From contig JALHQW010000003.1 of NCBI GenBank assembly GCA_022841745.1, positions 124,001 through 188,000 on the forward strand: a stretch of DNA of 64,000 bases, read 5' to 3'. Below, in pieces: positions 8,791 through 49,863 of this stretch. Origin of the DNA: Saprospiraceae bacterium. Lineage in GTDB: Bacteria; Bacteroidota; Bacteroidia; Chitinophagales; Saprospiraceae. A model generated the notes under the pieces. The model worked only from the letters and a program-made list of their open reading frames with translations, searched no databases and was not told the DNA's origin. The first letter of the stretch is position 1. Each line of letters begins with the position of its first letter. Made by a program: the position numbers and the translations under genes.

Positions 8791-8860
8791 TTACTGGAAT
8801 CAAGTTTTAACAAAAAATTAGCCCCCAAAGCGCCATCTTCGCCGTCCAAATTCAAAACCC

Positions 8861-12422: not shown

Positions 12423-12454
12423 TCAATCTTTTTTTCGGATAAACAAAGAAATAC

Positions 12455-12494: not shown

Positions 12495-12575
12495 GTGACT
12501 CGTAGCCGTGTATTTTTATTTCTGAAGTATTAATTTATGGGAAATAAAATCCCCTGCTACCTAAATCAAACAGTT

Positions 12576-22556: not shown

Positions 22557-24890
22557 CTATTGCCTAAGAACGTAGGCGCTCAACTGCTTCTGCGCCAGTT
22601 TTTTCACTAAGCCGAAGGCTTCGGATTTGGTGTCAAAACTGCTAACATAGAGCGCATAGAGGCCGCTCCTTTCCTGCTTTACAATGGCAGTGCCCTCGTA
22701 GCCCATGCTGTTCAGCAGGCTGTACCTGCGATTGGCGTTGTCTTGATTGGCAAAGGTTCCAGCTACTACGGTATAGGATTTTGCCCGGTAGCTGCCTGCG
22801 TTGCTAACAGGCACCGTCGTCGATCCGTTTTCTTCGTTTCCTTCCACCTCATTTCCACCCTTGTCAGCGTCGGGTTGACCAAGAACTGGGTTACTGTTCG
22901 GTTCTGTGCCACCACTTTCGGCAATCAGTTGTGAGGATGTGCTGGCACTTGGTTCGCCAAGCTCCAAAATTTTCACTTCTGTGCGGCGGTTGTACTGGTG
23001 TTCACGCTCCGAACATGCTACGCCAGACTTGCAACGGTTGCGCAATTGGCTTTCGCCATAACCCCTCGGTACGAGATGGCTTCCGTTAACCCCTTTTGAT
23101 GTCAGGTACTTGAAAACGCTTTTAGAGCGGCGGTTGGAAAGGTCTTGGTTATAAGCAATACCCCCCCTGGCATCGGTGTGGGAAGCCAATTCCAGCTTCA
23201 TGCTCGGGTAGGCTTTCATCATAGCCACCACCTCGTTCAGCTCTGGGTAAGCATCGGGACGGAGCGAGGCGTCGTCGAAGTTAAAGTAGATATTTGGCAA
23301 CTGGATGGTCATGCCTGCATAGAGGGGCGAACCACCGAGGTAAAGCGTGACTGGAATGCGGGCGTCTGCCGTGCAGGGCGTCTCCTTGGTGGAGGCGATT
23401 GATGGGGCCGAATTTGCGCCATTGCGTACCGCATAAATACTGAAGATACGGTTGCAGGGCAGACAATAGTCGAACTTACCTTGGTTGTCGCTATAAACGA
23501 CAATGGCCTCTTTGCTGTCCACGTCCACAATATGCACCTCAGCACCAGCCACGGGTTTATTGCTGCCAAGCACCAAGAGATTGCCATCGAGCGGCACACA
23601 ATTGGAAGCCTTGCGCAGCTTTATATCGAGCTTTGAAATATCAGTTCCAGGGGTAACGACCACGTACTCCGGCAGGTAGCCCTCTTTTTCGATTTTGATG
23701 ACATGGCTGCCACGACGAAGCGGCACCTTTGCTGTGCCATCAGCCCCCGTCACGCCCGACTCGCCCATGCCAGCCGAGTTCACATCCATGATGAAATTGT
23801 CCTTGCCATCACCGGGAAGTAATTTCACGAGGTCAGTGCTATCCCCAGCCAGGCCAATTTCATTGAAATTGATGGCACTGATGGTCACGCCGTCCATTGG
23901 GTTGCCATCGGCATCCTTGATTACAAGCCCGTCCAAGTTTCGGTTTTTTTCGGCAAATGGCCCTGTTGGCCCATCTACGTAGAAGCTGTAGATGTCATCG
24001 TAACCAAAGCCTCCCTTGCGGTCGGAAGAGAAATAGCCGTTCTTGTTCTCACTGTCCACGATAAAGCCGAAATCGTCCGTTTCTGTATTGAATGGCGCTC
24101 CAAGGTTTTCAGGTGTTGACCATTTCTGACCGGTTTGCATGGTCATAAAAAGGTCGAGGCCACCCCTGCCACCATGCCCGTCTGAGGAGAAGTACAGCGC
24201 ACCGTCCGCAGCGATATAGGGGAAAACATCGTTGCCAGGCGTGTTCACCGATGGGCCGAGGTTGACCAACGGCCCCCATGATTCGCCCGTTTTCTGTACC
24301 ATGTAAAGGTCAAAACCTCCCTGCCCCCCAGGCACATCGGCAGCGAGGAACATAACATCCCCGTTGGCCGAGATAGAGGGGTGCATGAAATTGTAGTTGA
24401 TATTGTTGAAAGGCAGCTTCTTTGCCTCTCCCCACTCCTCACCATTTTTTGATGCTTGATAAACCTGCATTTTCAACAGTTTGTCTGGAGCATATTCTTT
24501 CAACTCATTGCGGGAGAAGTAAATGGTGGAAGCCTCCCGGTCAAAGGTCATCGGGCCTTCATGTACCTTTTCCAAGATCTTATCAGAAAAAAGCACTGGC
24601 TCTTGCAGGAAGCCCTCTTCATCCCGTTGTGACCAAAATATGGACATCAGGTGGACGCCGCCGATCCGAATATCCTTGACATTGTCATAAAGGATATTCA
24701 CATCACGGGTAGATACGAACACGATACCATCTTTGTAAAAAACCGGGCTATACTCTAACCTCTCAGAGTTGACGCGTCGTTCATTGGTGAGCACGACACG
24801 GTCGTCGCCGAGCGAAATCTGCCCGAGCAAACTGTCCGTTGCCAACATGAAAGCCAGCAGTGCAACAAGTGTGGTGGTATTTTTTTTCAT
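22557..24890 (-). CDS. PD40 beta-propeller / OmpA / SPOR envelope protein
   Basis: 777 aa from the ATG at 24890, giving the signal MKKNTTTLVALLAFMLATDSLLG. WD40-like PD40 repeats fill residues ~40-310 (MHPSISANGDVMFLAADVPGGQGGFDLY, FPYIAADGALYFSSDGHGGRGGLDLF, GYFSSDRKGGFGYDDIYSF). Then come carboxypeptidase-regulatory-like repeats (~320-510), an OmpA peptidoglycan-binding domain (~525-650: IYFNFDDASLRPDAYPEL, SHTDARGGIAYNQDLSNRRSKSV) and a C-terminal SPOR-like domain (YTVVAGTFANQDNANRRYSLLNSMGYEG). PD40-OmpA proteins are commonly encoded with PorP/SprF proteins and link T9SS outer-membrane parts to peptidoglycan, as PorE does. The porP-like gene lies 130 bp upstream on the same strand. The SPOR tail gives a second peptidoglycan contact. 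Confidence 0.88.
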   Translation of the reverse strand: MKKNTTTLVALLAFMLATDSLLGQISLGDDRVVLTNERRVNSERLEYSPVFYKDGIVFVSTRDVNILYDNVKDIRIGGVHLMSIFWSQRDEEGFLQEPVLFSDKILEKVHEGPMTFDREASTIYFSRNELKEYAPDKLLKMQVYQASKNGEEWGEAKKLPFNNINYNFMHPSISANGDVMFLAADVPGGQGGFDLYMVQKTGESWGPLVNLGPSVNTPGNDVFPYIAADGALYFSSDGHGGRGGLDLFMTMQTGQKWSTPENLGAPFNTETDDFGFIVDSENKNGYFSSDRKGGFGYDDIYSFYVDGPTGPFAEKNRNLDGLVIKDADGNPMDGVTISAINFNEIGLAGDSTDLVKLLPGDGKDNFIMDVNSAGMGESGVTGADGTAKVPLRRGSHVIKIEKEGYLPEYVVVTPGTDISKLDIKLRKASNCVPLDGNLLVLGSNKPVAGAEVHIVDVDSKEAIVVYSDNQGKFDYCLPCNRIFSIYAVRNGANSAPSIASTKETPCTADARIPVTLYLGGSPLYAGMTIQLPNIYFNFDDASLRPDAYPELNEVVAMMKAYPSMKLELASHTDARGGIAYNQDLSNRRSKSVFKYLTSKGVNGSHLVPRGYGESQLRNRCKSGVACSEREHQYNRRTEVKILELGEPSASTSSQLIAESGGTEPNSNPVLGQPDADKGGNEVEGNEENGSTTVPVSNAGSYRAKSYTVVAGTFANQDNANRRYSLLNSMGYEGTAIVKQERSGLYALYVSSFDTKSEAFGLVKKLAQKQLSAYVLRQ

Positions 24891-25022
24891 AACAAAATAG
24901 GACAATAGGGGGATTTCATCTAAAACAAGTAACCCTGTCGCTAGGGCTATTGGAAGGAAAACTGGAGTGAAAAATCAAAAATAACCAGCCACCTCTTCCA
25001 AATAACCTTCCAAACTCGTGCC

Positions 25023-25973
25023 TTATTTCTTTTTGAAATAGCGCGGGTTCTCCAAATCACCTTCTTCGGTACGCAGGTCGTAGCGCATCAGCACCTCTAC
25101 CGACCCCGATTGCTGTTGGCGGATGTCAGAAAGCGTGAAGTCATAGCCCAGGCCTACGCCAATTTTCTGGGTTGCCTGGAAAAACACGATGCCGTCAATA
25201 CTATCGCCACTGCCATTGCCCCCAGTGCGGTAGGTGATCCCGCCAGTGACCTTCTTTGCATAGCGTACGCTGAAGTTAATGTCAAAATCGAGCGGGGCAT
25301 TTGCAACATACTTCAACATGAAATTCGGCATGATTTCCACTTGGTCATTAACCGGTATGGTGGCCCCCAAGTTGACATAGCGGTGGGGAGAAATTTTTGC
25401 TGTAATGGTTGAAATATCGTTGAAGCCAATGTCATTTGCCAGCAACTGAGGTGCCGAGACTCCAAGATAAAACATGTCCTTATAGGTTATATAAGCCCCG
25501 CCGCCAACGTTGCCGAGGTACTTATCGTAGAAATTATTGCGCGTAAAAGAATCGTCTATTTGGTCTTTGACTACAATGCGGTCGTCTGTGAAGTCAATGC
25601 CAAGGTACTCCAAAGTGGCCTGCAAGCCTAGCCTGACGCTCCAGTGCTCTGTCATACGTAGGTTGTAGGAATAGGCCGCAGAAGCGAAATAAGCGTAGCT
25701 GATTCCGATGGAATAGCGTGATAAGGTGCCGCCTATCCCAGCTCGCTGATTCATAACAGGGCTCTGAAAGCTGAGCACCTGCGACATTGGAGCGCCATCC
25801 CAACCAATCCATTGGCTACGGTGCAGCCCAGTGAAGGAAGGGGTGTTGCGGCTGCCAACATAGGCAGGGTTGTACAACTGTTGGTTGTACATGAAGTTGG
25901 TGTACATTGGCTCCTGTTGTGCCCAAAGGCTGAAACCTAGCAGTACGAATATGAGGGTTGATAAATTTTTCAT
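25023..25973 (-). CDS. PorP/SprF family T9SS outer-membrane protein
   Basis: 316 aa from the ATG at 25973. The upstream frame to 26048 is part of a heptamer repeat. A signal peptide (MKNLSTLIFVLLGFSLWAQ) is followed by the family signature QQEPMYTNFMYNQQLYNPAYVGSRNTPSFTGLHRSQWIGWDGAPMSQVLSFQSPV. The C terminus (VGLGYDFTLSDIRQQQSGSVEVLMRYDL) is also typical, and it is predicted to be a beta-barrel. SprF is needed for SprB secretion in Flavobacterium, and members are usually paired with a type-B sorting-domain protein. The pairing holds here: the gene just upstream is a 2113-aa type-B substrate. Confidence 0.93.
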   Translation of the reverse strand: MKNLSTLIFVLLGFSLWAQQEPMYTNFMYNQQLYNPAYVGSRNTPSFTGLHRSQWIGWDGAPMSQVLSFQSPVMNQRAGIGGTLSRYSIGISYAYFASAAYSYNLRMTEHWSVRLGLQATLEYLGIDFTDDRIVVKDQIDDSFTRNNFYDKYLGNVGGGAYITYKDMFYLGVSAPQLLANDIGFNDISTITAKISPHRYVNLGATIPVNDQVEIMPNFMLKYVANAPLDFDINFSVRYAKKVTGGITYRTGGNGSGDSIDGIVFFQATQKIGVGLGYDFTLSDIRQQQSGSVEVLMRYDLRTEEGDLENPRYFKKK

Positions 25974-25988
25974 TGTTGCTTGACGGTG

Positions 25989-26067
25989 TTTGGTATCTGG
26001 TGATTGGTGACTGGTGATTCGCAGCTCGTAGCAAGGCTTACGATTCACGAATCACGAGTCACCAAAC
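25989..26067. repeat. Heptamer repeat hairpin between the type-B gene and porP-like gene
   Basis: Units TATCTGG, TGATTGG, TGACTGG, TGATTCG (25994-26021) face CTTACGA, TTCACGA, ATCACGA, GTCACCA (26037-26064). The hairpin lies within the likely operon and could lower the amount of transcript reaching the downstream genes. Confidence 0.8.
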
Positions 26068-26073
26068 ACTAAA

Positions 26074-29000
26074 TCAACGATAAATCACTACAAATCCTTT
26101 TTGAACGGCCGCATCAGGGTCTCGCTGGAAGAGGTAGAAATAGGTCCCATCCGGCAGTGGCTTGCCATCACTATTGGTGCCAGCCCAGTCATTTTTGTAG
26201 GGTGCAGCTTCATAGACCTTATCGCCCCACTCATTGAAAATGACGATGGTATTGAGCAGTTGGTCGAACGCACACGAAACTTCAAGGTTGTCATTGGCAC
26301 CGTCACTGTTAGGGGATATTAGGTTTGTAACGACGCATTCACCCGGGCTGAAATTAAAGTCGAAAGTCACCTTCGCAACGTCGCATTCATCGGGGCAATC
26401 AATATTGCAAAACTCTACGAAAACGAGGTCAGTGCCCCAAAATCCAGGATCTGGTTGGAAGGCATAAATGCTGTCCCGAACCAAAGAGATGTTTCCATTT
26501 TCTGGCTGGTTAAGGAAGTTGACGGTGTATTGGCCATGGTCAATATTCACAAAATCAGACATGTTGAACTCCTGCGTGACATTGATAACACCTGCGACAA
26601 TGCCATCGTTGGCATCCACTTCGGGCGTCACTACCACATCAACCGTTGCAGTGGCTACACAACCATCCAAATTCGTGGCTATGACCGTGTAAGTGGAAGT
26701 GCCATACAATGAAGCATTGCCCACATTTAGGGTCTGCCCCGAACCAATTGCGTTGCCAGATGGATTGTACCAAGTATAAGTTCCGTTATCAACCGAACTT
26801 GCACTCAAGCTCAATGGATTGTTGGCACAGCCACCGAAATCCAAATTTGCTGCAAGGCCCAAGATGGCATCGGTGATTTTAACCTCTTTGCTGCCAAAGC
26901 CCTGGCAGCCATCAGTAGTTGCTACATCAAGGAAATAAAAACCATTGTTTGCAGAAGTAACACCGTCCAACACCGCAGCGGTGTTGTTCGTAATAAAGTT
27001 TCCTTGTGCATCAGTCCAGGAATAGATAAAGTTGCCTGTTAAATCAGTGGACAAAGTGATGGAAGTAGTGCCATCTACACAATCGGTCTCACCCGTAATG
27101 AAAATGTTCGGAGCGGGAAGCTGGTTGAACGTGACACTTACACTTACCGTATCCGTTTCACAACCGTTGTTATCAATTGCCGCAAAGGAATACGTATAAG
27201 TGCCAGCGGCATTAGGGCTTGCCGTGTTGTTACTAGAGCCTTGGTTATTAGGCAACAGGCCCTCGCCCGCCCAATAATAGGACTGTGCTCCAGGGTAGAA
27301 CGTACCCGATAGGTCAACGCTCGCACCAAAGCAAACCACCAGATCGCTTGCAGTTAAGGTTGGGGATTGCGGAGCCATGGTGAACTCCAATTCAACCGAT
27401 GCCGTATCTGAACATCCTCCTGCAGAAGTTGAAACTACCGTATAAGTACCATTGAATGCAGGGCTAACATCCAACAACGTCACGGTCTTGATATCGGTGG
27501 TCGGCGGCAAGGGGATTGGCCCGTCCCAAACCCACATATTAGCTCCCGTCCCATTATCAATCAGTGTTATATCGCTACCAGGTTCCAAGCACTTAGTATC
27601 ACCAATAACCTGCAAATTGACAATTGGGTAGGCACCCACACTTATCACCCATTCGGCAGTGTCGGAGACGCAACCATCCACTTCCACATAGAAGTAGTAA
27701 TAGTAAACACCAGGTGCCATTGGCTCAACCTTCACAATTGGGTTGTTGATAGGTATAAGGCCGCTATTGGCAGCAGGTTCGGAATACCAGTGATAAGTCA
27801 CATTGTTGCCACTGTAAAGTTGGCCATTGATGGTGACATCCTCGCCTTCGCAAATGACCGCATCCGTACCAAAAAGGAATGGATCATTTGGCCCCGTGCT
27901 CTCTTCAACGATGATGCTGCTGCTGCCCGTGCATCCGAAGTTCGATGTGGCAACCACCGTATAAGTGCCATAGCTACTGGCTGTCGGGTTCGGGATGGTC
28001 TGGTTTTGGCCTGAAACCATCGCCCCGTTGGGGAATTTCCACTGCCAGTTGGTGACAACGGCCAATGATGAATTGGTGGCCGTCAAATCAATAGGAGTAC
28101 CCGAGTTCAAGCACAAGATGTCGTTGGCTTGCGCAGTGACAACTGGGGCTGGGTCAACCACCAAGTTCACATTGAACTCAAGGTCGCAGAAGGCCATCGA
28201 AACCAAGGCCGTATATATGCCGCCCTGGCTGACCGTCACGTTGTTCAAGGTAAAGGTCTGCTGGTTACTTATTACTTGGTTGCCTTTGACCCACAGGTAA
28301 GAAGCGCCTGGCATTCCACCAACGGTGAAGGTCACGTTTTCGCCTTCGCATACCGGCGTCGGGGCAACCGAGGCTGGTGTTATTTGCGGATCGAGCACAT
28401 TGATGGTGAAGGAGCAAACCGAGATATTACCGTTGTTGTCTGTAGCTTGGTAAGTGAACATATTGGCACCTACCGGAAACGCACTGCCTGAAGGCAAGCC
28501 TGCCGTTTGCACAAAAGAGGAAATACCACATTCATCGGCTGGTATCAATTCTGACAAGAATAGGGTAATGTTTTCACAATCCATCTGCTGGTAGTTGCCA
28601 ATGATTCCGTCAGGGTCGTCCAGTACGCTGCCATCCACGGAGATGGAGGCGCCGGATGGGCAACCGACTATTTCAGGAGCGTCATTGTCCTCCACAGTGA
28701 TGGTGAGCGTGTCCCTTGTGATGTTGCCATTTACATCAATAGCCACAAAAATGACATCGTGTTCGCCAACGGCGAAGAAATCGCCGGAAACCCCTCCACT
28801 AGCCCCAAAAGACTCAATACCGCAATTGTCCAATGGGAAACCTGGACCAGTCCATGTAACAGCCGCTCCACAATCAAAAGGATCAGTATCTGTTGTGATA
28901 TCGGCAGGCATGTTTGGAATAAATGGCGGTTGGTTGTCCAACACCGTTACTGTGAAAGCACAAGAAGAGGTGTTGCCAGCATTATCGGTAGCTGTATAGA

Positions 29001-32000
29001 TGACGGTATGTACACCAACGTCGAAAGATGGGCCAGCAGGTGTGATTGGAACGGGTTGCACCTGGCCGCAATTGTCCGTGGCCGTTGGTACAGGAAAGTT
29101 GACCGTTGCGGAGCACTGGTTCAGGCTGGCATTCACAGGGGGCTGATTACCTGGGCATGTGAGGACTGGCGCTTGGTTGTCAAGCACTTCAACATAGAAG
29201 GTGCAAATAGCCGTGTTGCCGAGGTCGTCAACTGCAGTATAGGAGACAGGTGTAATGCCCACGGCAAATTGAGAGCCCGGCCCTTGTGGTGCGAACGTAA
29301 AAGACAGCACATCGTCACAATTGCCATCAGCCGTGATGGGAGGCCATGAAACAATAGCACTGCAATGACCCGGATCAGTATTCACCGTAATCGTATCCCC
29401 GGCAGGACAATTGTTGATTCTTGGCGGTTGGTTGTCAATTACTTCCAGTGTATAAATACAAGAAACCACATTACCTGCCATATCAATGGCGGTCACATTA
29501 ATGCTGTTGTAGCCAATTGGCAAAAGGCTTCCAATGGCTGGAAAATAATCCAAGTTTAAGCCTGGGCAGTTGTCCGTAGCTATGGGTAATATCGCCCCAC
29601 TAAAAACGAGGCCGCAGGAGTCAATTGTATTGCCATAAGTAATACTGTCAATTGGGCAGTTTACGAATACCGGTGCGGCGGTATCGGAAACAATTACTTG
29701 AAAACTGCAAGTAAGCGTATCGTTGTCAATGCTGATGGCTGTAAAACTCACGTCCGTAATGCCCACATTGAAGTCGCCGCTTGCATCCAGGCCAGTTTCG
29801 CCTCCGATAGTTGCACCACTGAGGGTATAGTAGGCAGAAGCCAAGTTGGCAGGAGGATCCACGGTTGCGAAAATCGAGTCTATGGTCGCAAAACAGCTAT
29901 TGGCGTTGTTGTCTGCAAGCTGTGCAGTGGGGCAGGTAAGGGTGAAAATAGGAACTTCCACAATGGTGACCTCCACGGTACAGGAGCTTTGATTCCCAAA
30001 ATCATCTTCCCCGAAATAAGTAACGGTAGTAGCACCAACGGGGAAAGCCTCGCCGCTTGCGTCACTACCCGTACCACCTCCAGATGGTATCGCACCCGAA
30101 AAATGATAAAAGCTGGTATCAATGCCACAATTGTCGCTGATGGCCAACAAGCCGATATTATTGATGATGGTGTCAATTGTGCCAAATGGTACTTCGATGG
30201 TCGTATCTGCCGGGCAGTCGAGGAAAGGTGCTTGGTCGTCGGTAATAGTCACCACAAAAGTGCAGGTATCCCTGTTGTTGCTGGGATCAGCCACGATGCA
30301 CATGACGGTTGTATTGCCCACTGGGAAGGAAGATCCAGATGGCGGGTTGCATGTAACCGTTACGGATGCAGCACAGTTGTCGGTCACTACCGGGGCCTGC
30401 CAATTGACAACCGCAGCACAAGTACCAGCGGTATTTGGCTGCGTTATATTGGCAGGGCAAGTAATGGTCGGTGCCTCTGTGTCATTCACCACCACTACCA
30501 CGCTGCACACAGAGATATTGCCGTTTATGTCGGTCGCAGTAAAATTGACCGTTGTAGAGCCGACATTGAAGACGTTGCCCGCAGGGCGGTTGTCAGTGAC
30601 GGACAAAACACCGCAATTATCTGTGGCCGTAGCATTGCCTAAAGCTACCACAGCAGTGCAAAGACCTGCTGTGTTGCCAACAGGTGATGGCGTTGCAGGA
30701 CAGGTGATGGCGGGTGCAGTGTTGTCTTCCAAGTTCACCATAAATGTGCAGGTATCCTTCAAACCGGCGGCATCGGTGGCAATCATGCTAACTAGGGTCG
30801 TATCCGAAATAACCGTACCGGGCGCAGGGGTTTGGCTTATAGTGACGCTGCCAGTTGGGCAGTTATCCGTTACCATTACCTGTCCAATATAATCACCAAG
30901 TGTAGCTTGGCAGCTTGCATTGGCCTGCAAATCAATATCGGAAGGGCAGGTAATGGAAGGTGGTTGGTTGTCAACTACTGTCACCGTAAAGGTGCAGGGT
31001 GCGCTCGCTTGGCCTTCGCTGTCGGTGGCTACATAAGTTACCGTTGTAACACCAACTGGAAACGTGCTTCCGGAAGCAGGGCCAACAGTGCGAACAGGCA
31101 CTGGGGGCACAACATCGCAATCATCGGTTGCCGTGGGCGCAGTCCAAGTGGCCACCTGCCCACAAGTACCTGGGGCAGCATTCAAAACGATGTTCGTTGG
31201 GCAATTCACAATGACTGGCGGGTTGTCAACAAATACTGCATTGCCATTTGTTGTAACCACAGGGCGGGGCACTGCAGGGAATGCAGCTGCAATGATAGCC
31301 GTTGGCATGTCTGTGAATTCTACCAAAGATTCATCTCCGCCTCCTGCCTGCCTTACGAAGTTCAAAATGAACAGGGTATCGTTGTTCGGCAGTGTCTTGC
31401 CTGTAGCCATGGGATCAACCCAAGCTACCGTTATGATGCCGTTGTTCGTTTGCGAGGTACCGAAATTGCTGGCAGTGAGCGGCAATACCGGATTCAGGTC
31501 AGTCCTTGAAAGGTACTTGATAACTGTTTCATCCCATTCCAAGGTAAAGGAAAAGGCTGTAATCATGTTAAAATTCCTCGTTGTGACCGCAATGGAAATG
31601 GTCGTATCGGCACATAAAGCTGTATCGCTCAGCGCAATAAACTCCACAGCATTCACCACTTGGTTGACCGTCACATTCACGGCGCAGTTGGCAGTATTGC
31701 CTTCGCCATCGGTAGCGACATAAGTGACAGTGGTAGTACCCAAATTGAAGGTACTGCCACTGGCATTGTTGGCACCGGAGATATTGGTAGCACCAGTTGA
31801 AGAATAAGTAACTGAAGCTAAAGCACAGTTATCGGCTGGCGTAGGGGCCAAGCCTACTACGACCGCACTACTGCCAGTCGTGTTGACAGTTTGCGAAGCA
31901 GGGCATGTAATTGTGGGCGACACGGTGTCGTCCCTTGTCACAGAACCATCAATGGTGGTCACGGGCACAACGACAGGTGGGAAGCCCTGTGCTGCAATGA

Positions 32001-32415
32001 TAGGTGTAGGATTGTCCTTGAATTGGACAAGCGATGTGCTGCCTACAGGACCAATGACCGTGAAATAGACCCGGTAAATCACGGTGCCATTCGGTCGGCT
32101 CTTACCGACGCCATCGTTGTCAATCCATGCAGTGGTGATGATGCCATTGGCCTGCTGAGAAGTGCCAAAATCTGCGGCATTGAGATAGGCGAGGTTGAAG
32201 GCACCAACGGAGTCGAAGTCCAAAACCGCCTCGTTCCATTCCATGGAATAAGAAAAAGCGGAAATATTGGTGAACCCGCTAACGGTCACTGGCACCGAAA
32301 CAGTCGTCTGGTTGGGACAGCTTTCGATATTGGGCACCGAAAAGCTTACTTGTGCAGTAAGCGCACCAATCCCTACCAAGAAACCTAAAACGGTTAAGGG
32401 TAAAGTCTTAAACAT
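26074..32415 (-). CDS. Giant cohesin-HYR-Ig surface protein, T9SS type B substrate
   Basis: 2113 aa from the ATG at 32415 (signal MFKTLPLTVLGFLVGIGALTAQ). Residues ~22-155 and ~255-390 are two cohesin-like domains (VSVPVTVSGFTNISAFSYSMEW; AFSFTLEWDETVIKYLS). About twelve HYR modules follow (~160-245, ~395-1345), each with an xxCPx start, a TDNC or DNCG centre and an FPVGxTTVTYxATD segment. Ig/PKD-like domains fill ~1345-1950. The last ~90 residues are a type-B (gliding-motility-associated) sorting domain: ISPNSDGANDNLEV ... VIFNEWGDKVYEAAPYKNDWAGTNSDGKPLPDGTYFYLF. It should be secreted by T9SS and held at the cell surface, probably as an adhesin. The porP-like gene follows. Confidence 0.9.
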   Translation of the reverse strand: MFKTLPLTVLGFLVGIGALTAQVSFSVPNIESCPNQTTVSVPVTVSGFTNISAFSYSMEWNEAVLDFDSVGAFNLAYLNAADFGTSQQANGIITTAWIDNDGVGKSRPNGTVIYRVYFTVIGPVGSTSLVQFKDNPTPIIAAQGFPPVVVPVTTIDGSVTRDDTVSPTITCPASQTVNTTGSSAVVVGLAPTPADNCALASVTYSSTGATNISGANNASGSTFNLGTTTVTYVATDGEGNTANCAVNVTVNQVVNAVEFIALSDTALCADTTISIAVTTRNFNMITAFSFTLEWDETVIKYLSRTDLNPVLPLTASNFGTSQTNNGIITVAWVDPMATGKTLPNNDTLFILNFVRQAGGGDESLVEFTDMPTAIIAAAFPAVPRPVVTTNGNAVFVDNPPVIVNCPTNIVLNAAPGTCGQVATWTAPTATDDCDVVPPVPVRTVGPASGSTFPVGVTTVTYVATDSEGQASAPCTFTVTVVDNQPPSITCPSDIDLQANASCQATLGDYIGQVMVTDNCPTGSVTISQTPAPGTVISDTTLVSMIATDAAGLKDTCTFMVNLEDNTAPAITCPATPSPVGNTAGLCTAVVALGNATATDNCGVLSVTDNRPAGNVFNVGSTTVNFTATDINGNISVCSVVVVVNDTEAPTITCPANITQPNTAGTCAAVVNWQAPVVTDNCAASVTVTCNPPSGSSFPVGNTTVMCIVADPSNNRDTCTFVVTITDDQAPFLDCPADTTIEVPFGTIDTIINNIGLLAISDNCGIDTSFYHFSGAIPSGGGTGSDASGEAFPVGATTVTYFGEDDFGNQSSCTVEVTIVEVPIFTLTCPTAQLADNNANSCFATIDSIFATVDPPANLASAYYTLSGATIGGETGLDASGDFNVGITDVSFTAISIDNDTLTCSFQVIVSDTAAPVFVNCPIDSITYGNTIDSCGLVFSGAILPIATDNCPGLNLDYFPAIGSLLPIGYNSINVTAIDMAGNVVSCIYTLEVIDNQPPRINNCPAGDTITVNTDPGHCSAIVSWPPITADGNCDDVLSFTFAPQGPGSQFAVGITPVSYTAVDDLGNTAICTFYVEVLDNQAPVLTCPGNQPPVNASLNQCSATVNFPVPTATDNCGQVQPVPITPAGPSFDVGVHTVIYTATDNAGNTSSCAFTVTVLDNQPPFIPNMPADITTDTDPFDCGAAVTWTGPGFPLDNCGIESFGASGGVSGDFFAVGEHDVIFVAIDVNGNITRDTLTITVEDNDAPEIVGCPSGASISVDGSVLDDPDGIIGNYQQMDCENITLFLSELIPADECGISSFVQTAGLPSGSAFPVGANMFTYQATDNNGNISVCSFTINVLDPQITPASVAPTPVCEGENVTFTVGGMPGASYLWVKGNQVISNQQTFTLNNVTVSQGGIYTALVSMAFCDLEFNVNLVVDPAPVVTAQANDILCLNSGTPIDLTATNSSLAVVTNWQWKFPNGAMVSGQNQTIPNPTASSYGTYTVVATSNFGCTGSSSIIVEESTGPNDPFLFGTDAVICEGEDVTINGQLYSGNNVTYHWYSEPAANSGLIPINNPIVKVEPMAPGVYYYYFYVEVDGCVSDTAEWVISVGAYPIVNLQVIGDTKCLEPGSDITLIDNGTGANMWVWDGPIPLPPTTDIKTVTLLDVSPAFNGTYTVVSTSAGGCSDTASVELEFTMAPQSPTLTASDLVVCFGASVDLSGTFYPGAQSYYWAGEGLLPNNQGSSNNTASPNAAGTYTYSFAAIDNNGCETDTVSVSVTFNQLPAPNIFITGETDCVDGTTSITLSTDLTGNFIYSWTDAQGNFITNNTAAVLDGVTSANNGFYFLDVATTDGCQGFGSKEVKITDAILGLAANLDFGGCANNPLSLSASSVDNGTYTWYNPSGNAIGSGQTLNVGNASLYGTSTYTVIATNLDGCVATATVDVVVTPEVDANDGIVAGVINVTQEFNMSDFVNIDHGQYTVNFLNQPENGNISLVRDSIYAFQPDPGFWGTDLVFVEFCNIDCPDECDVAKVTFDFNFSPGECVVTNLISPNSDGANDNLEVSCAFDQLLNTIVIFNEWGDKVYEAAPYKNDWAGTNSDGKPLPDGTYFYLFQRDPDAAVQKGFVVIYR

Positions 32416-32591
32416 TTTCTTTGAGTTTATAGGACTGCAACCGATATGCTCGGCAGGTATCGGTTTCAATCTAAATCGGTTATCAGAAAAACCAGACCTC
32501 ATAAAAGCGTCTGATTGTCATAACTACCAAAAAGCTATGTGAGCATAAAACGAATTAGCTGTTCAGTGTGTAGGTTTCTCCTCCTGCTATA

Positions 32592-32617
32592 CCGCTCCCC
32601 CGATGAAGGGGGAGCGG
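32592..32617. other. GC-rich hairpin between the two giant genes
   Basis: CCGCTCCCCC pairs with GGGGGAGCGG around GATGAA in the 447-bp gap. It is not followed by a T run in either direction, so I do not call it a terminator. Confidence 0.5.
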
Positions 32618-32816
32618 CATCTAACAGAAGCAAATAGTGGATAATCCGTCCCTTAAAAAATGGGACTTCATTGACCTTGGGCATTAATCGAAACATACCC
32701 AAGTAAACTAAGCCGTGTTCATCAAACCTGCTGCCTAACCTATTTTCCCTTTGTCAAAAGACATTGATAAATTCTTTTTTGACAAGCAAACAGCAAGGTC
32801 TCGAAAAGCCCAAAAG

Positions 32817-32850
32817 CTTTGGACTGGCCCCATTTTGGCCAGTCCAAACT
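32817..32850 (-). terminator. Terminator-like hairpin after the 2450-aa gene
   Basis: TTTGGACTGGCC pairs with GGCCAGTCCAAA around a ~7-nt loop, 13 bp past the stop at 32863 on the minus strand. The following tract is only moderately T-rich. If it works, the two giant genes are separate transcripts. Confidence 0.65.
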
Positions 32851-32862
32851 GCTTTGGATTTG

Positions 32863-35800
32863 TTAATCAATCAGTACCATCTTCTTAACTGCACTGCCAA
32901 ACTCAGTGTCAATGCGGTAGAAGTAAACGCCTGTTGTAGGAAGCTGGGTGTTGTCGAACTTCACTTGGTGGTTGCCAGCAGCGTAGTCGCCATTCACCAC
33001 TTTCACGGTTTTGCCAGATACGTCACTGATAGTCAGCGTCACGTGCATTGCCGCAGGCAAGTAGAACGGAATCATCGTCTCGTTACCGAATGGGTTCGGA
33101 CGGTTCTGGTAAAGGGCGATTTTGCCATTTGCCAAGTCGTTCGTACTGGATACGCTGCTGCTAAAGTTAATGCCCATGTCCTTCTGCTCAAGGCTGCTTG
33201 TGAATGCCTCGGCATTAAGCGGGTCGGTTACGATATCGAGCAGGTTGCTCAATTTGCTGGCATTCCCGATTGCCTCGAACACCAAGGTAAACAGCACTTC
33301 ACCATCAGCTAAGGATACTGGCTCTTCGTTGTACCAGATGGAAGTGATGTCACCATTGGCAGCGTTGGCGATGCCAAAGTTTGAGGCATTCATCCTTGGC
33401 AATGCGCCAGCTTCCATGCCTTTGTACTTGAGCACGCTCTGATCGAAGTTCAAGCTGTACTGGAAGGCCACGAAATCATAGAAATCACTCGCCTTGAAAG
33501 CTATGCGATACTCGTTGCCTGCTACGACGGCATGGTCATCCACTTGGAAGAACATGGAGCCGCTTCCATCGGAAACTGGGTTGCCTGCGAGGGTGGCTGC
33601 ATTTGCCGTGAAGTCAAGGTCACCGACTTTCATACCAACGAAGTTGGTCGTCTGGTTCGTAGTCACGTTGGTGTAAACCTTGTTCTGCGGGTATGGAGGC
33701 GAGAACGGATTGTTCGGGTTCGGGAACACATAGCTTGCATCCACAAACCTCCAGGAGGTGTTGTTGGCAAGGCCAATACATGGGTTACCAGCCAATACAA
33801 TCAGGTGCAGTTCAAGTTCGTCAAGTACGTTGATGGAACCATCGTTGTTGATATCGGCAGCGATGCGCAGGTATGGCGTTGCCAATGGTGCAGAACCAAG
33901 CACGTGTTGGTGCAGGATGAGCACGTCAATGACGTTGATACCGTTGCAATCGTTGATATCCTTCACTGGTGTGATGGTTTCGTTGCTGCCAGAAGGTACG
34001 GTAAAGCTATAAGTGCCAGGAGCACCCGTGGTTTGAGAACCGTTAACTGAGCCAATCATACCTACGTTCACCAACTGAACATTCGTGCTGTTTGCACGCT
34101 GAATCGTACCGTTCAGGGTCACGTTGCTCGGAACCACAATAACGGAAACCGTACCAGACACACCTGTAATTGGCACTACGCTCGAATTGCAACGAGCCAT
34201 CATGAGCGAAGTCGGGTTACCATCAATACTCAAGGTAGATGTGCTACCAACTGCACCAGTCAACTGAACATTGACATTGAAGATGGCCGTACCATCCGGT
34301 AAAGAAACCGGCGAACCGTTCACCCAACTAAAGGTAATGTTATTTCCTGATACCGTGAAGTCACCAGCGTCCAATCCAGTAAGGTTGAATCCGCCTACGC
34401 CCGTTACGTTGCCAGCAGTGCCAGCAAGGTGGAGCGAACCGGAAAGTGCACAGATATTGTCAAACCCAGTAACAGAGATTGGAACGGATACCGTAGAACC
34501 GTTACCACCGCTCGTGTTGCTTGCACGCAAAGTGCCACGGGCAATGACCGTGACTGGCGTGGTGCAAGTGCTGGAATTGGCGGGTGTAGCATTGTCAGTA
34601 ACCGTCAGAACTACAGGTACTACACCTACGTCAGCAAGTGTGAAAGTACTTGGTGAGATGCTCAAGTTCACCGCACCACAGTTGTCGGCACTACCGTTGT
34701 TGATATCTGCCGGCGTCAAAGAACCTTGGCCATTGCTGTCGAGGATTAGCGTCACTCCTGACAAGCAGGCAGCCTGTGGCGCTTGCAGGTCACGAATGCT
34801 GAGTACGAAGGTCTGAGATGCTGAGTTGCCGCAAGGATCAACCGCTGTCACTGTGATAGAGTAGTTGCCCGTTGGGAACACGCCCGTAATCACACCAGAA
34901 CCGTTGCCTATGGCAGAAGCCGAGGTGCGGGTAATGGTGAGGTATTGGTCAACTGCACAATCTGCGATATAATCTGCCAAGTTGATGTTCAAATTGGCGT
35001 TGCAAAGGTTCGGGTCGGTACCCACGATGAGTGGGTTCGGCACTGAGAGTACTGGGTTTTGAGCGTCAGAAACCGTAATGGTTTGTGAAGCAGAAACGAC
35101 AGCGTTGCAACCGTCCGTGGTACTCCAGGTACGGGTTATAGAATAGTTGTAGAAACTGCATTGAGCAGGATTGGCACCCTGGGTGGAAGTCTGGCCGTAA
35201 GTAACGCTCGGCGTCATACAATTGTCAGATGCAGTAACCGTAGCAGGAGCAGGTACACTGCAAGACTGTGCAGTAGTGTTGGCTGGCACACCGGCCAAAG
35301 ATGGCGGCGTTGGGTCAGTTACCGTAATTGTCTGCGTGCAGGATGCAGAACCGCCAGCTGTATTCGCTGTCCAAGTACGTGTGATAACACGGCAGTTAAC
35401 CGGGCCGGAAACTGTTACGTCAGCATACGTCGGCGTTACAGGGCCACAAGCCGTCATCGCTGTGGCAGAACCACCCGATGTGGCTGGGTTGGCTGGGTTG
35501 AACAAGTTGCATGTTACATTGGCCGCAGCGGGGCAAGTGATGGTCGGTGGCGATACGTTGGTAATCTGCACCGAAGTCGTGCAAGTATTGAAATTGCCAG
35601 CGGCATCCGTCACGGTAAGTACTACTGGGTGCGGGTTAGGCGTGGTAGCACAGTTGAAGGAAGCCGGGTTCACCGACATGGAAGCAATTCCGCAGTTGTC
35701 GTTGCTGCCATTGTTCACGGTTGCAGGTGTAATATTGGCAATACCGCTGCTGTTCAGGGTCACCGGAATCGGGCCGAATTGGCAAATAGCCGTTGGCGAC

Positions 35801-38800
35801 TCGGTGTCCTTGATGACAATCTGGAAAGTGGCAGCGTAGCCGTTGTTGTTAACATTGCTGCAGGGGTCAGCAGCCCTAACGGCTACTGAGTGCGTGCCTA
35901 CCGGCAAAACGACGTTTAGGTTGCTGGTATTCTGCACCGTGCCACCATTGATGGAATAGCTTACTGAAAGGTACTGGTCGGCAGCACAGTCAGCGATATA
36001 ATCCAACAAGTTGACGGTGGCAGTTCCAGCGCAGTTGCCTGCGTTGTTGTTGAACATCAACATAGCTGGGAAGCTGTACGTTGGCATAGTGGCATCGCTT
36101 ACGTTCAAAACCTGGTTGTAAATAGTGATGTTGCCGCAATTGTCCATTGCCGTCCACCTACGGGTCATGGTGTAGTTGTAGAAGCTACAAGCAGCAGGGT
36201 TAGCGCCTTTTGTATTGACTGGCACTGTGAAGTTGACTGGTACATCAGTATCACAGTTATCAAGGCCTGTGGCAATTGCCGGAGCAGGAACGTTGCAGGC
36301 ATCAACACTGACAGGCGTTGTTGGTGCAGTACCCAAGCCAGCAGTTGCGCCGTTCCAGTCAAGGTCTGGGGCCACTAAGTCCTGTACCGTAATGGTCTGG
36401 AAGCAAAGGCTCGTATTGGCTGGTGAAGCATTGTCAGATGCTGTCCAAGTACGGGTAATCGTGCGGCAGTTTGGGTGGTTGAAGTTACCCGCTGGGTTGC
36501 CGCTTACAATATTTCCGAACACATCGGAGTGGGTCGGAGTCACGACACCTGCACAGTTGTCAATGGCCGTTGCCAAACCAGTTGCGGTTGGGTCGGAAGA
36601 CTGGGTGCAAGAAATGGTCACGTTTGGCGGGCAAGTGATGGTCGGCCCTTGCAGGTCACGAATTGTCACTACTGTTTGGCAGAACGCCTCGTTGGCTGGA
36701 GAAGCATTGTCCCTAACCCGCAGGATGACGTTGTTGGGGCCGATGTTCAAGCAACCGAAAGTAGTGCTTGGGTTGAAGGTACTTCCACCATCCTTTGAAA
36801 TGGCAAGGACTACTGGAGGCGAACAAGCGTCGGAGCTGCCAAAATTGATATCAGAAGCAAGCACAGTGGCAATTCCACTGCCCGGCAGGGTGACCAATAG
36901 GGGCTGGCACTGTGCCTGGGGCGATTCCTTATCAACGACCGTTACAGTGGTGTTGCAGGTAGTCTGATTGCCGTTCACGTCCGTGGCACGGATAGTGACG
37001 GGAATCGCAGGGCCAATATTGGCACAATTGAACACAGCGCTTGAAGCAAACGGGCCTGCATTCGCAGATATTGCCCAATTCTGAACACCGCAAGCATCGT
37101 AGAAGAAACGCTTGCCATCGGTATTGTTGCTGGAAGCAAATGACCAGTTACTCGGCTTGAATGGCCCAGTGAACTTAGGGCTGAAGTTGGTAATCCAAAT
37201 TTCGGCGTCACCAAAAAGGTTATCAGTGGATTGGGCACGGAAACCGAAAGTAGCACCTGCTGGTACAGAGACCGTTGCAGTGCCACTCTGAATCAATACA
37301 CCATTGTCATTGGACAATTGTGTGAAAGTACCGCCAATGTAATAGCCAAACTTGTCATAAAATGGCGAGGTGTTGTTGGAAACATAGTTCCAGTCAAACG
37401 TGAAGGTCATCACGTTTGGCGTCGTTACTTGGTAGTTGTTGTTTCCTTGCGTACCGCTGCCGTTGTTGCCAGTTGACATATAAAGACCACCAGTTACAAG
37501 GTCGGTTGGGTAAACCGTCACTTGGCCGGGTGTACTGATATTGTTCTGTGAATCCGGAGAGCCCGTGCTGACCGTAATCGGAGAGCAGGTGACGACCGGG
37601 GCAACCATGTCCTGGATGATGATTGCATTGGGGCAGTTCAGCATAGTCTGATTGCCACTTGGATCCGTCACCGTGATGCTGTAGTCATTGTTCTGGACAC
37701 CAGCAAGACTTGGGTTCTGGTCACCAACATCGCTACAGTTGAACATATTCGGCGTCACTGACCAAGAGGAAATCTTGCAGTTGTCAGATGCACCTGCGAT
37801 TAGTAAGTCTCCTAAAGTACCTTGTATGGAGATTGTCCAACTTACATTGCCCATGTCGCCACCAACTGCATCCCAAACACGCAACACCCAGTTGCCTTGG
37901 TAATTTTGACCTTCCAAAGGTGAGAAGGAATTAAGTGGACGGTAGGTGCCGGAGTTGTTTGCTACACAAGCATTTTCGAAGTCAGTTGCCGAAAGTAAGG
38001 CTTGGTCATCAAAACTAACGTTCAAGCCGTTTTGGCTACAGCCGAAACCACTCGCAGGGACGCCCGGCCTGTCAAACAAGTTAAGAATTGTGCCTGAAGG
38101 AGAAGTCAAGGTAGCCCTTAGGTCACCAATCCAAGTATGATCGGTTGTGAACAGGATATTGACATCAGCAACCGTACCGAATGCAGGTATGTTAATGGTC
38201 GAAGTCACACCCGTAACGTTGTCGTTGTCGGGAATTGCAACAGGGCCACCGTTGCCAGTCACTGGTGCTGCGTTATTTGCATCCGAAAGGGCGATCATGC
38301 CATCATCGTCCAATTGGAACGTCACGTTATTGCAGACAACCGTTGGTGCTGTCACGTCTTGAACCGTGATAGTCTGCGTGCAGAAGCCATCGTTGGTATA
38401 GTCGAACAAAATTCCAGGATTGTCATCGAACTCCCGAACCCTTACTCTTACGGTATTTACCCCTACTTGCGCACAATTGAGCGTCAAATTATTGACTGGT
38501 GCGATGACTGTGGAATTCAATTCTACAAAATCAAAACCAAGCGGTGCAGGCGAATCGCAAGCATCGAAGCTGCCATTGTCGAGCGAGCTGGCCAATACAT
38601 TGATATTGCCAGTCCCATCAAGTTGAACCGTAAGGTTTTTGCAGATAACGGCAGGTGGTGAGTTGTTCACCACGTTGACCGATGAAGTACATGTATTTGA
38701 GTTGCCATTGGCATCCGTCACAGTCAGGGTAACTACATCCGGGAAAAAACCTCCAACCTCGGCACAAGTAAATGTAGCGCCAGTCAAGGAATAGGTAAGG

Positions 38801-40215
38801 CCAGCAGTTGGTGTACAGTTGTCAAAGCTGCCATTGTTCACCTGGACTGCAGTCAGCGTCGTGGTACCAGTGGGTGGAATAGACACCTGAATGGAGCCTG
38901 CCACGCAAATTGCAGTAGGCGACACGTTGTCTATAATATTCATTGCCATGGTGGCAGTCCCTTGAAGTCCGCAAGGGTCAATGGCCGAATAGGTAATGGT
39001 ATAATTACCAGCAGGGTAGGTGCCAGCGGCATTGAGGCCACTGCCAGAGTTCACAATCTGGTTGTTGACATTGTTGCGTACAATGAAAGCCATGATAAGG
39101 TGTGCGCCTGCCGTACAATCCGACACGCTTGCTGTTGCCTGGCCTGCAGACACAACACCTTGGCAGTTTGAGTTGGCTGGCATGTTGATGGCTGCTGGTG
39201 GCGTAATCACTGGTGCACTGTTGGTCACCGTGATGGTCTGCACCCAAGTCGTCATATTGCCGCAATCATCTTGCAGTTTGTAAGTGCGAGTAATGACGTA
39301 TTGTGTATTTGCGCACATGGCCGGGTTGGCATCATAGGTGCTCACGTCCGTAACGGTCGGAGTTGGAGACACATCGCAGTTGTCAGAGAAGGTAGCTGCG
39401 GCAGGAAACACTGCAGCGGGCACTGGAGCGGCACAGCTAATTGTAAGGTTAGCTGGTGGTGTACCCAGCACTGGCGGGCCGTTGCTGGCACCGTTCCAGT
39501 CAATGACTGGAGGTGTATTGTCGTTGACGGTAATAGTTTGAACGCAAGAAGAATTGGTAAGTCCATCATAAGTGGCCCTCCAAGTACGGGTAATGCCGTT
39601 GCTAGTGCAACCAGCACCTACTACGTCACAATAAGTAACGCCTGCCGAGTAAGGAGCAGTACAGTCAATTCCCGCTTGAGCCAATGGGCCGCCGCAGTTG
39701 TCAGTAGCTTGGGCAGTACCAGTAGCTGCTGGTGCAGTGGACGCACCGCAGTTAACGGCTATATTGGGTGGGCATGTCGTAAAGACTGGCGCTAGGTTGT
39801 CCACCACCGTCACCGTAGTCTGGCAGGTGTTCATATTGCCAGCCGCATCCGTTACGGTAAGCGTGACGACGACGTTGCCAATCACGGAGCAATTCACATT
39901 GCTGGGCGCTACGGACAAGGTTACGGCACCGCAGTTGTCAGTGCTGCCGTCATCAATATCCTCGGGGTCAATAGGCGCATTGCCGTTGGTGTTGAGGGCA
40001 ATAGTGAAAGGCCCTTCACAAACCGCCGTTGGGGCGGTCACGTCTGGCGCACACTGTGCCACGGCCGACTGGTAAGAGAAGCAACACAGTAGTAGTAGTG
40101 CTACTGCTGATTTCAAGCCTGCCTTTAAAACAGTTGGCATCAGGGCTACAGCCTTTGCTTGTCCGTTGGAGCCTGAGCGACAGCGTTCAAGTTCCAGAGT
40201 GTTGAAATTTAGCAT
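32863..40215 (-). CDS. Giant HYR / P-domain / cohesin-dockerin surface protein, T9SS type A substrate
   Basis: 2450 aa. The signal lies late (LKSAVALLLLCCFSYQSAVAQ, residues ~32-53), so the true start may be the internal Met26 rather than the ATG at 40215. HYR-like repeats fill most of residues ~55-1890. A proprotein-convertase P-domain is at ~655-810 (FTTDHTWIGDLRATLTSPSG ... NWVLRVWDAVGGDMGNVSW). Toward the C terminus are a cohesin-like domain (~1890-2025), a dockerin (~2083-2148: VKDINDCNGINVIDVLILHQ and AADINNDGSINVLDELELHL), a second cohesin-like domain (~2225-2345) and a type A sorting domain (NRPNPFGNETMIPFYLP ... TTGVYFYRIDTEFGSAVKKMVLID). It should be secreted through T9SS and attached to the surface; adhesion is inferred. 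Confidence 0.9.
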   Translation of the reverse strand: MLNFNTLELERCRSGSNGQAKAVALMPTVLKAGLKSAVALLLLCCFSYQSAVAQCAPDVTAPTAVCEGPFTIALNTNGNAPIDPEDIDDGSTDNCGAVTLSVAPSNVNCSVIGNVVVTLTVTDAAGNMNTCQTTVTVVDNLAPVFTTCPPNIAVNCGASTAPAATGTAQATDNCGGPLAQAGIDCTAPYSAGVTYCDVVGAGCTSNGITRTWRATYDGLTNSSCVQTITVNDNTPPVIDWNGASNGPPVLGTPPANLTISCAAPVPAAVFPAAATFSDNCDVSPTPTVTDVSTYDANPAMCANTQYVITRTYKLQDDCGNMTTWVQTITVTNSAPVITPPAAINMPANSNCQGVVSAGQATASVSDCTAGAHLIMAFIVRNNVNNQIVNSGSGLNAAGTYPAGNYTITYSAIDPCGLQGTATMAMNIIDNVSPTAICVAGSIQVSIPPTGTTTLTAVQVNNGSFDNCTPTAGLTYSLTGATFTCAEVGGFFPDVVTLTVTDANGNSNTCTSSVNVVNNSPPAVICKNLTVQLDGTGNINVLASSLDNGSFDACDSPAPLGFDFVELNSTVIAPVNNLTLNCAQVGVNTVRVRVREFDDNPGILFDYTNDGFCTQTITVQDVTAPTVVCNNVTFQLDDDGMIALSDANNAAPVTGNGGPVAIPDNDNVTGVTSTINIPAFGTVADVNILFTTDHTWIGDLRATLTSPSGTILNLFDRPGVPASGFGCSQNGLNVSFDDQALLSATDFENACVANNSGTYRPLNSFSPLEGQNYQGNWVLRVWDAVGGDMGNVSWTISIQGTLGDLLIAGASDNCKISSWSVTPNMFNCSDVGDQNPSLAGVQNNDYSITVTDPSGNQTMLNCPNAIIIQDMVAPVVTCSPITVSTGSPDSQNNISTPGQVTVYPTDLVTGGLYMSTGNNGSGTQGNNNYQVTTPNVMTFTFDWNYVSNNTSPFYDKFGYYIGGTFTQLSNDNGVLIQSGTATVSVPAGATFGFRAQSTDNLFGDAEIWITNFSPKFTGPFKPSNWSFASSNNTDGKRFFYDACGVQNWAISANAGPFASSAVFNCANIGPAIPVTIRATDVNGNQTTCNTTVTVVDKESPQAQCQPLLVTLPGSGIATVLASDINFGSSDACSPPVVLAISKDGGSTFNPSTTFGCLNIGPNNVILRVRDNASPANEAFCQTVVTIRDLQGPTITCPPNVTISCTQSSDPTATGLATAIDNCAGVVTPTHSDVFGNIVSGNPAGNFNHPNCRTITRTWTASDNASPANTSLCFQTITVQDLVAPDLDWNGATAGLGTAPTTPVSVDACNVPAPAIATGLDNCDTDVPVNFTVPVNTKGANPAACSFYNYTMTRRWTAMDNCGNITIYNQVLNVSDATMPTYSFPAMLMFNNNAGNCAGTATVNLLDYIADCAADQYLSVSYSINGGTVQNTSNLNVVLPVGTHSVAVRAADPCSNVNNNGYAATFQIVIKDTESPTAICQFGPIPVTLNSSGIANITPATVNNGSNDNCGIASMSVNPASFNCATTPNPHPVVLTVTDAAGNFNTCTTSVQITNVSPPTITCPAAANVTCNLFNPANPATSGGSATAMTACGPVTPTYADVTVSGPVNCRVITRTWTANTAGGSASCTQTITVTDPTPPSLAGVPANTTAQSCSVPAPATVTASDNCMTPSVTYGQTSTQGANPAQCSFYNYSITRTWSTTDGCNAVVSASQTITVSDAQNPVLSVPNPLIVGTDPNLCNANLNINLADYIADCAVDQYLTITRTSASAIGNGSGVITGVFPTGNYSITVTAVDPCGNSASQTFVLSIRDLQAPQAACLSGVTLILDSNGQGSLTPADINNGSADNCGAVNLSISPSTFTLADVGVVPVVLTVTDNATPANSSTCTTPVTVIARGTLRASNTSGGNGSTVSVPISVTGFDNICALSGSLHLAGTAGNVTGVGGFNLTGLDAGDFTVSGNNITFSWVNGSPVSLPDGTAIFNVNVQLTGAVGSTSTLSIDGNPTSLMMARCNSSVVPITGVSGTVSVIVVPSNVTLNGTIQRANSTNVQLVNVGMIGSVNGSQTTGAPGTYSFTVPSGSNETITPVKDINDCNGINVIDVLILHQHVLGSAPLATPYLRIAADINNDGSINVLDELELHLIVLAGNPCIGLANNTSWRFVDASYVFPNPNNPFSPPYPQNKVYTNVTTNQTTNFVGMKVGDLDFTANAATLAGNPVSDGSGSMFFQVDDHAVVAGNEYRIAFKASDFYDFVAFQYSLNFDQSVLKYKGMEAGALPRMNASNFGIANAANGDITSIWYNEEPVSLADGEVLFTLVFEAIGNASKLSNLLDIVTDPLNAEAFTSSLEQKDMGINFSSSVSSTNDLANGKIALYQNRPNPFGNETMIPFYLPAAMHVTLTISDVSGKTVKVVNGDYAAGNHQVKFDNTQLPTTGVYFYRIDTEFGSAVKKMVLID

Positions 40216-44600: not shown

Positions 44601-44817
44601 TAGCGAAGTCACCATATCGCTCACCGGCGTGAAGGAAGGTGCTCAGGCAGAATTGCGTGTCTTCGACAATTTTGGGCGAATGATGTTCAAGCAAGTACTT
44701 GTGGATGGAAGCCAACGAATCAAGCTGCAAGTAGGCACTTGGAACCAAGGGATTTACTCATTATCACTTATTTCGGGCAATGAGCAGGCCTTGCAGCGCT
44801 TGATAGTTCAACGTTAA
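41692..44817 (+). CDS. YWTD-propeller / thrombospondin type 3 repeat protein, T9SS type A substrate
   Basis: 1041 aa with a signal segment ([23 protein letters not shown]). Residues ~40-295 form an LDL-receptor-class-B-like propeller ([84 protein letters not shown]). Residues ~300-870 are calcium-binding thrombospondin type 3 repeats, most with a 36-aa period ([24 protein letters not shown]). A short metal-binding-like stretch leads to the type A sorting domain ([17 protein letters not shown] ... [22 protein letters not shown]). T9SS secretion is predicted. Extensive Asp content implies a calcium-stiffened rod. The repeats are nearly identical at the DNA level. Confidence 0.88.
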
Positions 44818-49804: not shown

Positions 49805-49863
49805 GTGGATTTATTTTGAAGCCCCTGTATCGGAGGGCATTTCATGAATAAAAACGATTTTTT

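Follow-up and report, generated by a model that had tools for sequence, protein, structure and literature searches.

The stretch of DNA analysed here (64,000 nucleotides, hereafter the window) is part of an 8.43-Mb Saprospiraceae genome and carries four consecutive minus-strand genes between 40215 and 22557, which encode, in this order, a giant protein, a scaffold-type protein, a PorP/SprF protein and a PD40-OmpA-SPOR protein. The giant (32863-40215; open reading frame list and Pfam) comprises 2450 amino acids with HYR-like and P-domains, a cohesin, a module that we term XDC and a T9SS tail; its P-domain (proprotein convertase) lies at 37834-38169 (PF01483, E 1.4e-7). The upstream cohesin, which is of a scaffold-like type, is located at 34153-34533 (minus strand, as all domains given below) and was recognized by the lineage profile A3 (E 1.6e-23), which was built without this domain and yet detects it, and by profile A1 (E 5.7e-7); the Pfam scan returned no match for it. 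The XDC module, including the start of the tail, spans 33064-34125 (profile A1; model pTM 0.85) and contains both a dockerin and a second, downstream cohesin. The dockerin (33805-33963; PF00404, E 3.2e-7) scored 33.9 bits in the genome search and 29.2 bits in the protein scan, both above the cut-off of 22.9. Its second calcium loop is complete (DINNDGSINVLD), and its first loop has a cysteine at position 5, where 170 out of 261 relatives have a leucine, which is likewise not an acidic residue. Because the first loop is incomplete, so that two complete calcium loops are not present, the window dockerin is classed as dockerin-like with respect to its loops.

The downstream cohesin of the giant (33172-33555) was detected by profile A3 (E 9.5e-26) and by PF00963, the latter at 33223-33477 with 26.6 bits in the genome search (above the cut-off of 24.1) and with 20.0 bits, thus under the cut-off, in the protein scan. 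Its modelled structure (model residues 186-323 were compared, which correspond to the downstream cohesin) matched known cohesin folds with Z scores of 13.1 for 4dh2_C and 12.6 for 1ohz_A. The chain ends with a T9SS type A sorting tail (32875-33099; PF18962, E 2.4e-5), whose 25.0 bits do not reach the cut-off of 27. Genome-wide, 31 cohesin and 16 dockerin matches were found at E 0.001 or better, which indicates that the cohesin and dockerin calls are more than chance. The arrangement of cohesin, dockerin and cohesin in a single chain, which an earlier note on this DNA had read from the sequence, is thus borne out by PF00404, PF00963 and profile A3.

The neighbouring scaffold-type protein (26074-32502) contains two cohesins at 31945-32352 and 31243-31638 (PF00963 and profile A3, in which both cohesins are themselves rows), as well as HYR and Ig domains (Pfam) and a CHU_C T9SS type B sorting domain at 26083-26331 (PF13585, E 8.8e-22, above the cut-off). 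The two cohesins had been named in the earlier note and are confirmed, and the length of the protein is corrected to 2142 amino acids from the first ATG; the 2113 amino acids given before correspond to a start 29 codons later. The PorP/SprF gene is located at 25023-26048 (PF11751, E 2.4e-58) and the PD40-OmpA-SPOR gene at 22557-24905 (Pfam). The genome encodes SprA and shows 24 PorP/SprF matches in total. With SprA in the genome and C-terminal sorting domains on both scaffold and giant, the two proteins have the features of T9SS cargo, in agreement with the delivery route proposed previously. As to the proposed anchoring, the adjacency of the PorP/SprF gene holds, but PD40-OmpA-SPOR had to be dropped as a conserved anchor, as phmmer labels place such a protein beside a scaffold only in the window; since many other stretches stop soon after PorP/SprF, this part of the proposal is unsupported rather than refuted. 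A second PorP/SprF gene in the window adjoins the gene of a 291-amino-acid CHU_C protein (48845-50739), which is the same pairing in small form.

The XDC architecture was seen many times when the proteins of this genome were read. It consists of a carboxypeptidase-regulatory-like Ig domain, the dockerin, a conserved extension containing a WRF motif, a variable linker, the cohesin and the T9SS tail. Profile A1, built from 17 paralogues, found 42 places in this genome, of which 23 extend into the dockerin region and 19 cover the cohesin alone. Of 120 family genomes sampled, 109 (the window's own genome counted) have XDC, and with a stricter cut-off it is present in 57 of 62 genomes of the same family versus 5 of 186 others in a sample of 248 from the order; the named relatives with XDC loci are mostly Saprospiraceae. 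Outside the family, 3 of 196 genomes of the class were matched by the scaffold-type cohesin profile. Among solved structures, the XDC profile matches both partners of one complex, 4uyp_A and 4uyp_B. The cargo of 21 dockerin-module proteins of the genome consists mainly of HYR, Ig-like and P-domains; a metallopeptidase family occurs in individual dockerin-module proteins. No glycosidase was present among the 25/26 Pfam families listed for 21/23 dockerin-module proteins, as the earlier note had remarked for the locus, and no carbohydrate-binding family among the 25/26 families listed for 21 of them. A scaffoldin with several cohesins, one hallmark of cellulosomes, does exist (two cohesins in the window, up to ten in relatives); without a glycosidase or carbohydrate-binding family among the families listed, a cellulosome in the strict sense was nevertheless rejected. 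Since the cohesins and the dockerin of the window are not accompanied by digestive enzymes and most of the sampled relatives have comparable modules, a role in forming or shaping the cell surface is probable. Elsewhere in the genome, two neighbouring giants of 2472 and 2513 amino acids (contig C32, 39867-56304) have apparently identical XDC modules and tails, which apparently reflects a recent duplication or conversion, and two short cohesin proteins adjoin each other on contig C55 (8773-10211), one of which has a lipobox-like signal (LIAAC) and is possibly lipid-anchored.

That dockerin and cohesin pair within XDC is suggested by their co-evolution. Mutual information among 193 non-redundant modules linked dockerin positions 10, 17 and 18, which we take to be recognition positions, to cohesin columns 271, 273 and 313; recognition positions account for 60% of the top 20 dockerin-cohesin pairs versus 24% of the columns. 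In mean-field DCA of 261 modules, the pair of column 116 (position 17 of dockerin repeat 2) and column 273 was number 12 among all pairs, the eleven above it being all inside one domain or within the dockerin unit, and ranked first among 7598 dockerin-cohesin pairs with a z of 7.7, compared with at most 4.6 in ten permutations of the cohesin half. The pair kept this rank after removal of the window's own genome; when the alignment was halved at random ten times, it ranked 1, 7, 1, 6, 1, 1, 28, 1, 3 and 1. On the tree, both columns change together on 10 branches (2.6 expected), which corresponds to rank 4 of 6321; the three pairs outranking it have no evident interface role. Hydrophobic residues at 273 occur in 26 of 40 modules without R or K at column 116 versus 17 of 221 others, a comparison which ignores kinship. 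Both repeats weigh similarly for position 17 with respect to mutual information, and position 17 of the first repeat ranked 43 in DCA and 2267 in the tree test. In the model, columns 228-230, 271-273 and 313 fall in strands 3, 6 and 8 (numbered within the model). In a published complex, the 8-3-6-5 sheet of the cohesin meets helices 1 and 3 of the dockerin (PMC8063739); interface residues were sought in further literature, and none were obtained there. Taken together, DCA, permutations and the tree test argue for the dockerin-cohesin pairing that the earlier note had assumed, although co-evolution within a chain would look alike if the pairing occurred between copies of one protein. The symmetry known as dual binding was considered as a mark of the window's dockerin class and discarded, as the result was mixed: position 17 is identical in both repeats in 10 of 40 dockerins without R or K versus 3 of 221 (and in five of five window-type operons), and position 18 shows the opposite, with 10 of 40 versus 131 of 221.

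Whether the dockerin would be engaged by its own chain or by another one was addressed with structural models and with the linker. For the 354 residues of the window XDC module, AlphaFold with 101 relatives gave a pLDDT of 92 and a pTM of 0.85, compared with about 0.53 expected for an unplaced downstream cohesin; this implies a mean error between the two bodies of about 2 Å. In the control, in which the upstream cohesin was modelled together with the dockerin unit, a pTM of 0.69 was obtained versus about 0.59 for an unplaced domain, implying about 9 Å, and this value is intermediate and no clean negative; unplaced pTM values and errors in Å are estimates from domain sizes and not a PAE read-out. 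The linker measures 22 to 24 residues in 258 of 284 XDC modules despite a mean entropy of 2.82 bits, compared with 1.37 for the dockerin and 2.44 for the cohesin. Its length varies less (standard deviation 1.3) than the cohesin loops (1.7-2.6) and the linker between cohesin and tail (2.9, cut by the profile edge), and more than two folded parts within the dockerin unit (0.2 and 0.6). The contrast in pTM together with the nearly constant linker favours docking within one chain, and the dockerin is most likely bound to the cohesin that follows it there, although both observations would also be compatible with pairing between copies. In the structure prediction, an approach that the earlier note had called for, the downstream cohesin has a fixed placement relative to the dockerin unit, and the result for the upstream one is intermediate. 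Self-assembly of a network through cohesin-dockerin-cohesin chains is not supported in the form given in the earlier note; the strongest evidence, pTM and linker length, ties the dockerin to its own chain, which leaves room for binding in trans.

The combination of an XDC gene with a multi-cohesin gene, which the earlier note had described for this locus, recurs in other genomes, where the order is XDC, often a small cohesin gene, a multi-cohesin gene with 2 to 10 cohesins, whose product in most cases has a CHU_C tail, and PorP/SprF; the stretches examined were partly picked for adjacency of XDC and multi-cohesin genes. A cohesin-only gene lies next downstream in 7 of 79 XDC loci. In three of these (L092, L099, L104) a small one-cohesin gene comes first after XDC, and in the other four (L047, L086, L118, L119) XDC is directly followed by the multi-cohesin gene; the window operon has this second form and lacks the small cohesin gene. 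Considering 31 reading frames with at least two cohesins and no XDC, an XDC gene is found within 1.5 kb upstream in 15, and PorP/SprF adjoins 23 (20 downstream, 3 upstream); most of the remaining frames run off the stretch. Two or more cohesin matches within one frame occur in at least 19 of 120 family genomes. Among 22 scaffolds picked by their CHU_C label, 21 show a cohesin match and 18 SprB repeats; for the window scaffold no SprB repeats are listed at E 0.001, and HYR is present instead. SprB and SprF have been described in gliding Flavobacterium, which suggests that the cohesin arrays might sit on SprB-like stalks. The operon is also carried by Phaeodactylibacter xiamenensis KD52 (L092), in which the multi-cohesin gene occupies two overlapping reading frames (8229-12969), through either a genuine interruption or an error of the assembly.

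Gene order and side-chain class can be compared across these loci. In the window XDC, position 17 is a histidine in each of the two dockerin repeats, position 273 of its own cohesin is a tyrosine, and this class (H or Q at 17 with Y or F at 273) is common to the window and the four loci with the same gene order (five of five). Orthology of these five window-type giants was not recovered, as their common node spans all 261 leaves of the midpoint-rooted tree. Of 51 stretches of non-XDC cohesins that have a residue at 273 (some of them overlapping fragments), 38 carry F, Y, L, I or V there, and such hydrophobic residues match the H/Q-17 class and not the common R-17 class. However, in 4 of 9 clusters compared (C80, L092, L099, L104) the XDC adjoining the scaffold belongs to the R-17 class, which counts against a simple matching rule. 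Since the chain of the scaffold contains no dockerin, its cohesins are likely docking sites in trans. The recurrent operon and the matching dockerin class together support a putative T9SS cohesin-dockerin assembly.

We thus consider a T9SS-exported, enzyme-free surface operon of a kind common among Saprospiraceae, in which XDC forms a clasp within its own chain and the scaffold offers docking sites in trans, to have about an even chance of being correct. The dockerin, built into the Ig-like unit, would close on the cohesin of the same chain as a C-terminal clasp before the sorting tail, presumably through the canonical surfaces with the dockerin helices on cohesin strands 8-3-6-5, and closure might take place after export, where calcium is presumably higher. 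The scaffold would be exported by its CHU_C tail, probably together with the neighbouring PorP/SprF, and its cohesins might dock dockerins of the minority H/Q-17 class in trans, with the window giant as the best candidate partner. Domains, gene order, co-evolution and the fixed placement of the cohesin in the model are supported by computation. From these we infer the contact in cis, its dependence on calcium, an exchange onto the scaffold and an adhesive or coat role. A broader version, which we put forward tentatively and rate below an even chance, is that T9SS adhesins with a SprB or HYR stalk and as many as ten cohesins recruit cis-capped dockerin giants as a lineage-wide, enzyme-free counterpart of the cellulosome, the code at positions 17 and 273 determining which of them stay closed and which exchange.

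Three other explanations have to be weighed against the clasp with docking sites in trans. XDC dockerins might instead bind cohesins of other chains and form an enzyme-free coat of head-to-tail chains attached to scaffolds. Such a network in trans, which the earlier note had proposed and which we regard as rather unlikely, is consistent with scaffolds of 2 to 10 cohesins beside XDC genes, with the 19 or more of 120 genomes having several cohesin matches in one frame, with 11 genomes that lack XDC and also scaffold-type cohesins (the profile also detects XDC cohesins), and with the class matched in all five window-type operons; against it, both the model and the length of the linker point to contact within one chain, and 221 of 261 XDC dockerins have R or K at position 17, yet scaffold-type cohesins are mostly hydrophobic at 273 (38 of 51). 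The clasp might also be real while the scaffold cohesins serve other partners, such as dockerin-like proteins or non-protein ligands, so that two separate systems lie side by side. The recurring adjacency of XDC and cohesin-only frames (15 cases, from loci partly picked for adjacency) and the class matched in the five window-type operons make this unlikely in our view, despite the mismatched code in four of nine clusters, the 72 of 79 XDC loci without a cohesin-only frame (profile A1; many stretches are short) and the presence of further dockerin-like proteins in the genome.

Very unlikely, finally, is a purely structural stalk, in which dockerin and cohesin would act merely as folded spacers ahead of the sorting tail, with no specific binding partner: the coupled pair lies far above the permuted controls and at surfaces used in known complexes. 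That the cargo is mostly Ig-like domains and HYR repeats would fit such a stalk, as would the first dockerin loop, which has no acidic residue at position 5 (leucine in 170 of 261), so that one loop alone may bind calcium.

Cohesin-dockerin pairs, which have mostly been studied in cellulose degraders, belong to the strongest known protein contacts. Like cellulosomal pairs such as the Acetivibrio cellulolyticus ScaC cohesin with the ScaB dockerin (4uyp), both of which are matched by the XDC profile, XDC shows the cohesin fold, and its coupled columns map to cohesin strands 3, 6 and 8 and to helix 3 of the dockerin. In contrast to these pairs, dockerin and cohesin of XDC share one chain with a T9SS tail and without a glycosidase seen, and its Ig-like unit is, judged by DCA couplings, closed around the dockerin. 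Similarity to SprB and SprF of Flavobacterium consists in the SprB repeats of 18 of the 22 scaffolds, the CHU_C tail and the adjoining PorP/SprF, whereas the cohesin arrays are N-terminal and the window scaffold has HYR in place of SprB repeats. Cohesins of the same fold also occur outside cellulosomes in Archaeoglobus fulgidus (2xdh) and Clostridium perfringens (2jh2, 2vo8), from which neither a T9SS scaffold operon nor a family-wide expansion is known to us.

A multi-cohesin scaffoldin of T9SS type with dockerin enzymes has been proposed for Candidatus Stygibacter of the Cloacimonadota (PMC8542988), and T9SS scaffoldins are thus not new in principle. Both systems have dockerin proteins and a scaffold that combines several cohesins with a tail of T9SS type, but Ca. 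Stygibacter has enzymes and carbohydrate-binding domains and the window system is without such enzyme cargo, and the window has the one-chain XDC and PorP/SprF beside the scaffold. A literature search found no account of such a system in Saprospiraceae, where an earlier mention is possible; what seems new is the one-chain dockerin-cohesin unit, its family-wide spread and the enzyme-free operon linked to PorP/SprF. If true, the role of cohesin-dockerin contacts would widen to adhesion or coat building in a family of Bacteroidota, XDC would be a naturally occurring clasp of dockerin and cohesin whose specificity code can be read, and T9SS bacteria would have a route to multi-protein surface assemblies. 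The presence of the operon in a named strain, P. xiamenensis KD52, makes the idea testable.

Three small proteins encoded at 1788-4745 on the minus strand had been considered as dockerin partners in the earlier note. Their paired loops were confirmed by sequence reading and alignment: the proteins are related to each other, each has two loops of the D-x-N type with about four extra residues per loop (an insert of the QGPNND type), and they finish in short I/L-P tails. Membership in a dockerin family was not upheld, as no dockerin family matched any of them at E up to 1 in Pfam, where no T9SS tail was matched either, and their role as dockerin partners was dismissed as unsupported. One of them shows an EF-hand_5 match over a loop (E 0.16), and all three align with a 1194-amino-acid protein on contig C11 that has a Dockerin_1 match (E 3.6e-6); they are at best distant dockerin-like proteins. 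The window further encodes a 1041-amino-acid protein that combines 13 thrombospondin type 3 repeats with a T9SS tail (41692-44817), and CRISPR-Cas genes for Cas1, a Cas3-like helicase and a DevR/Csa2-type protein (57504-63200).
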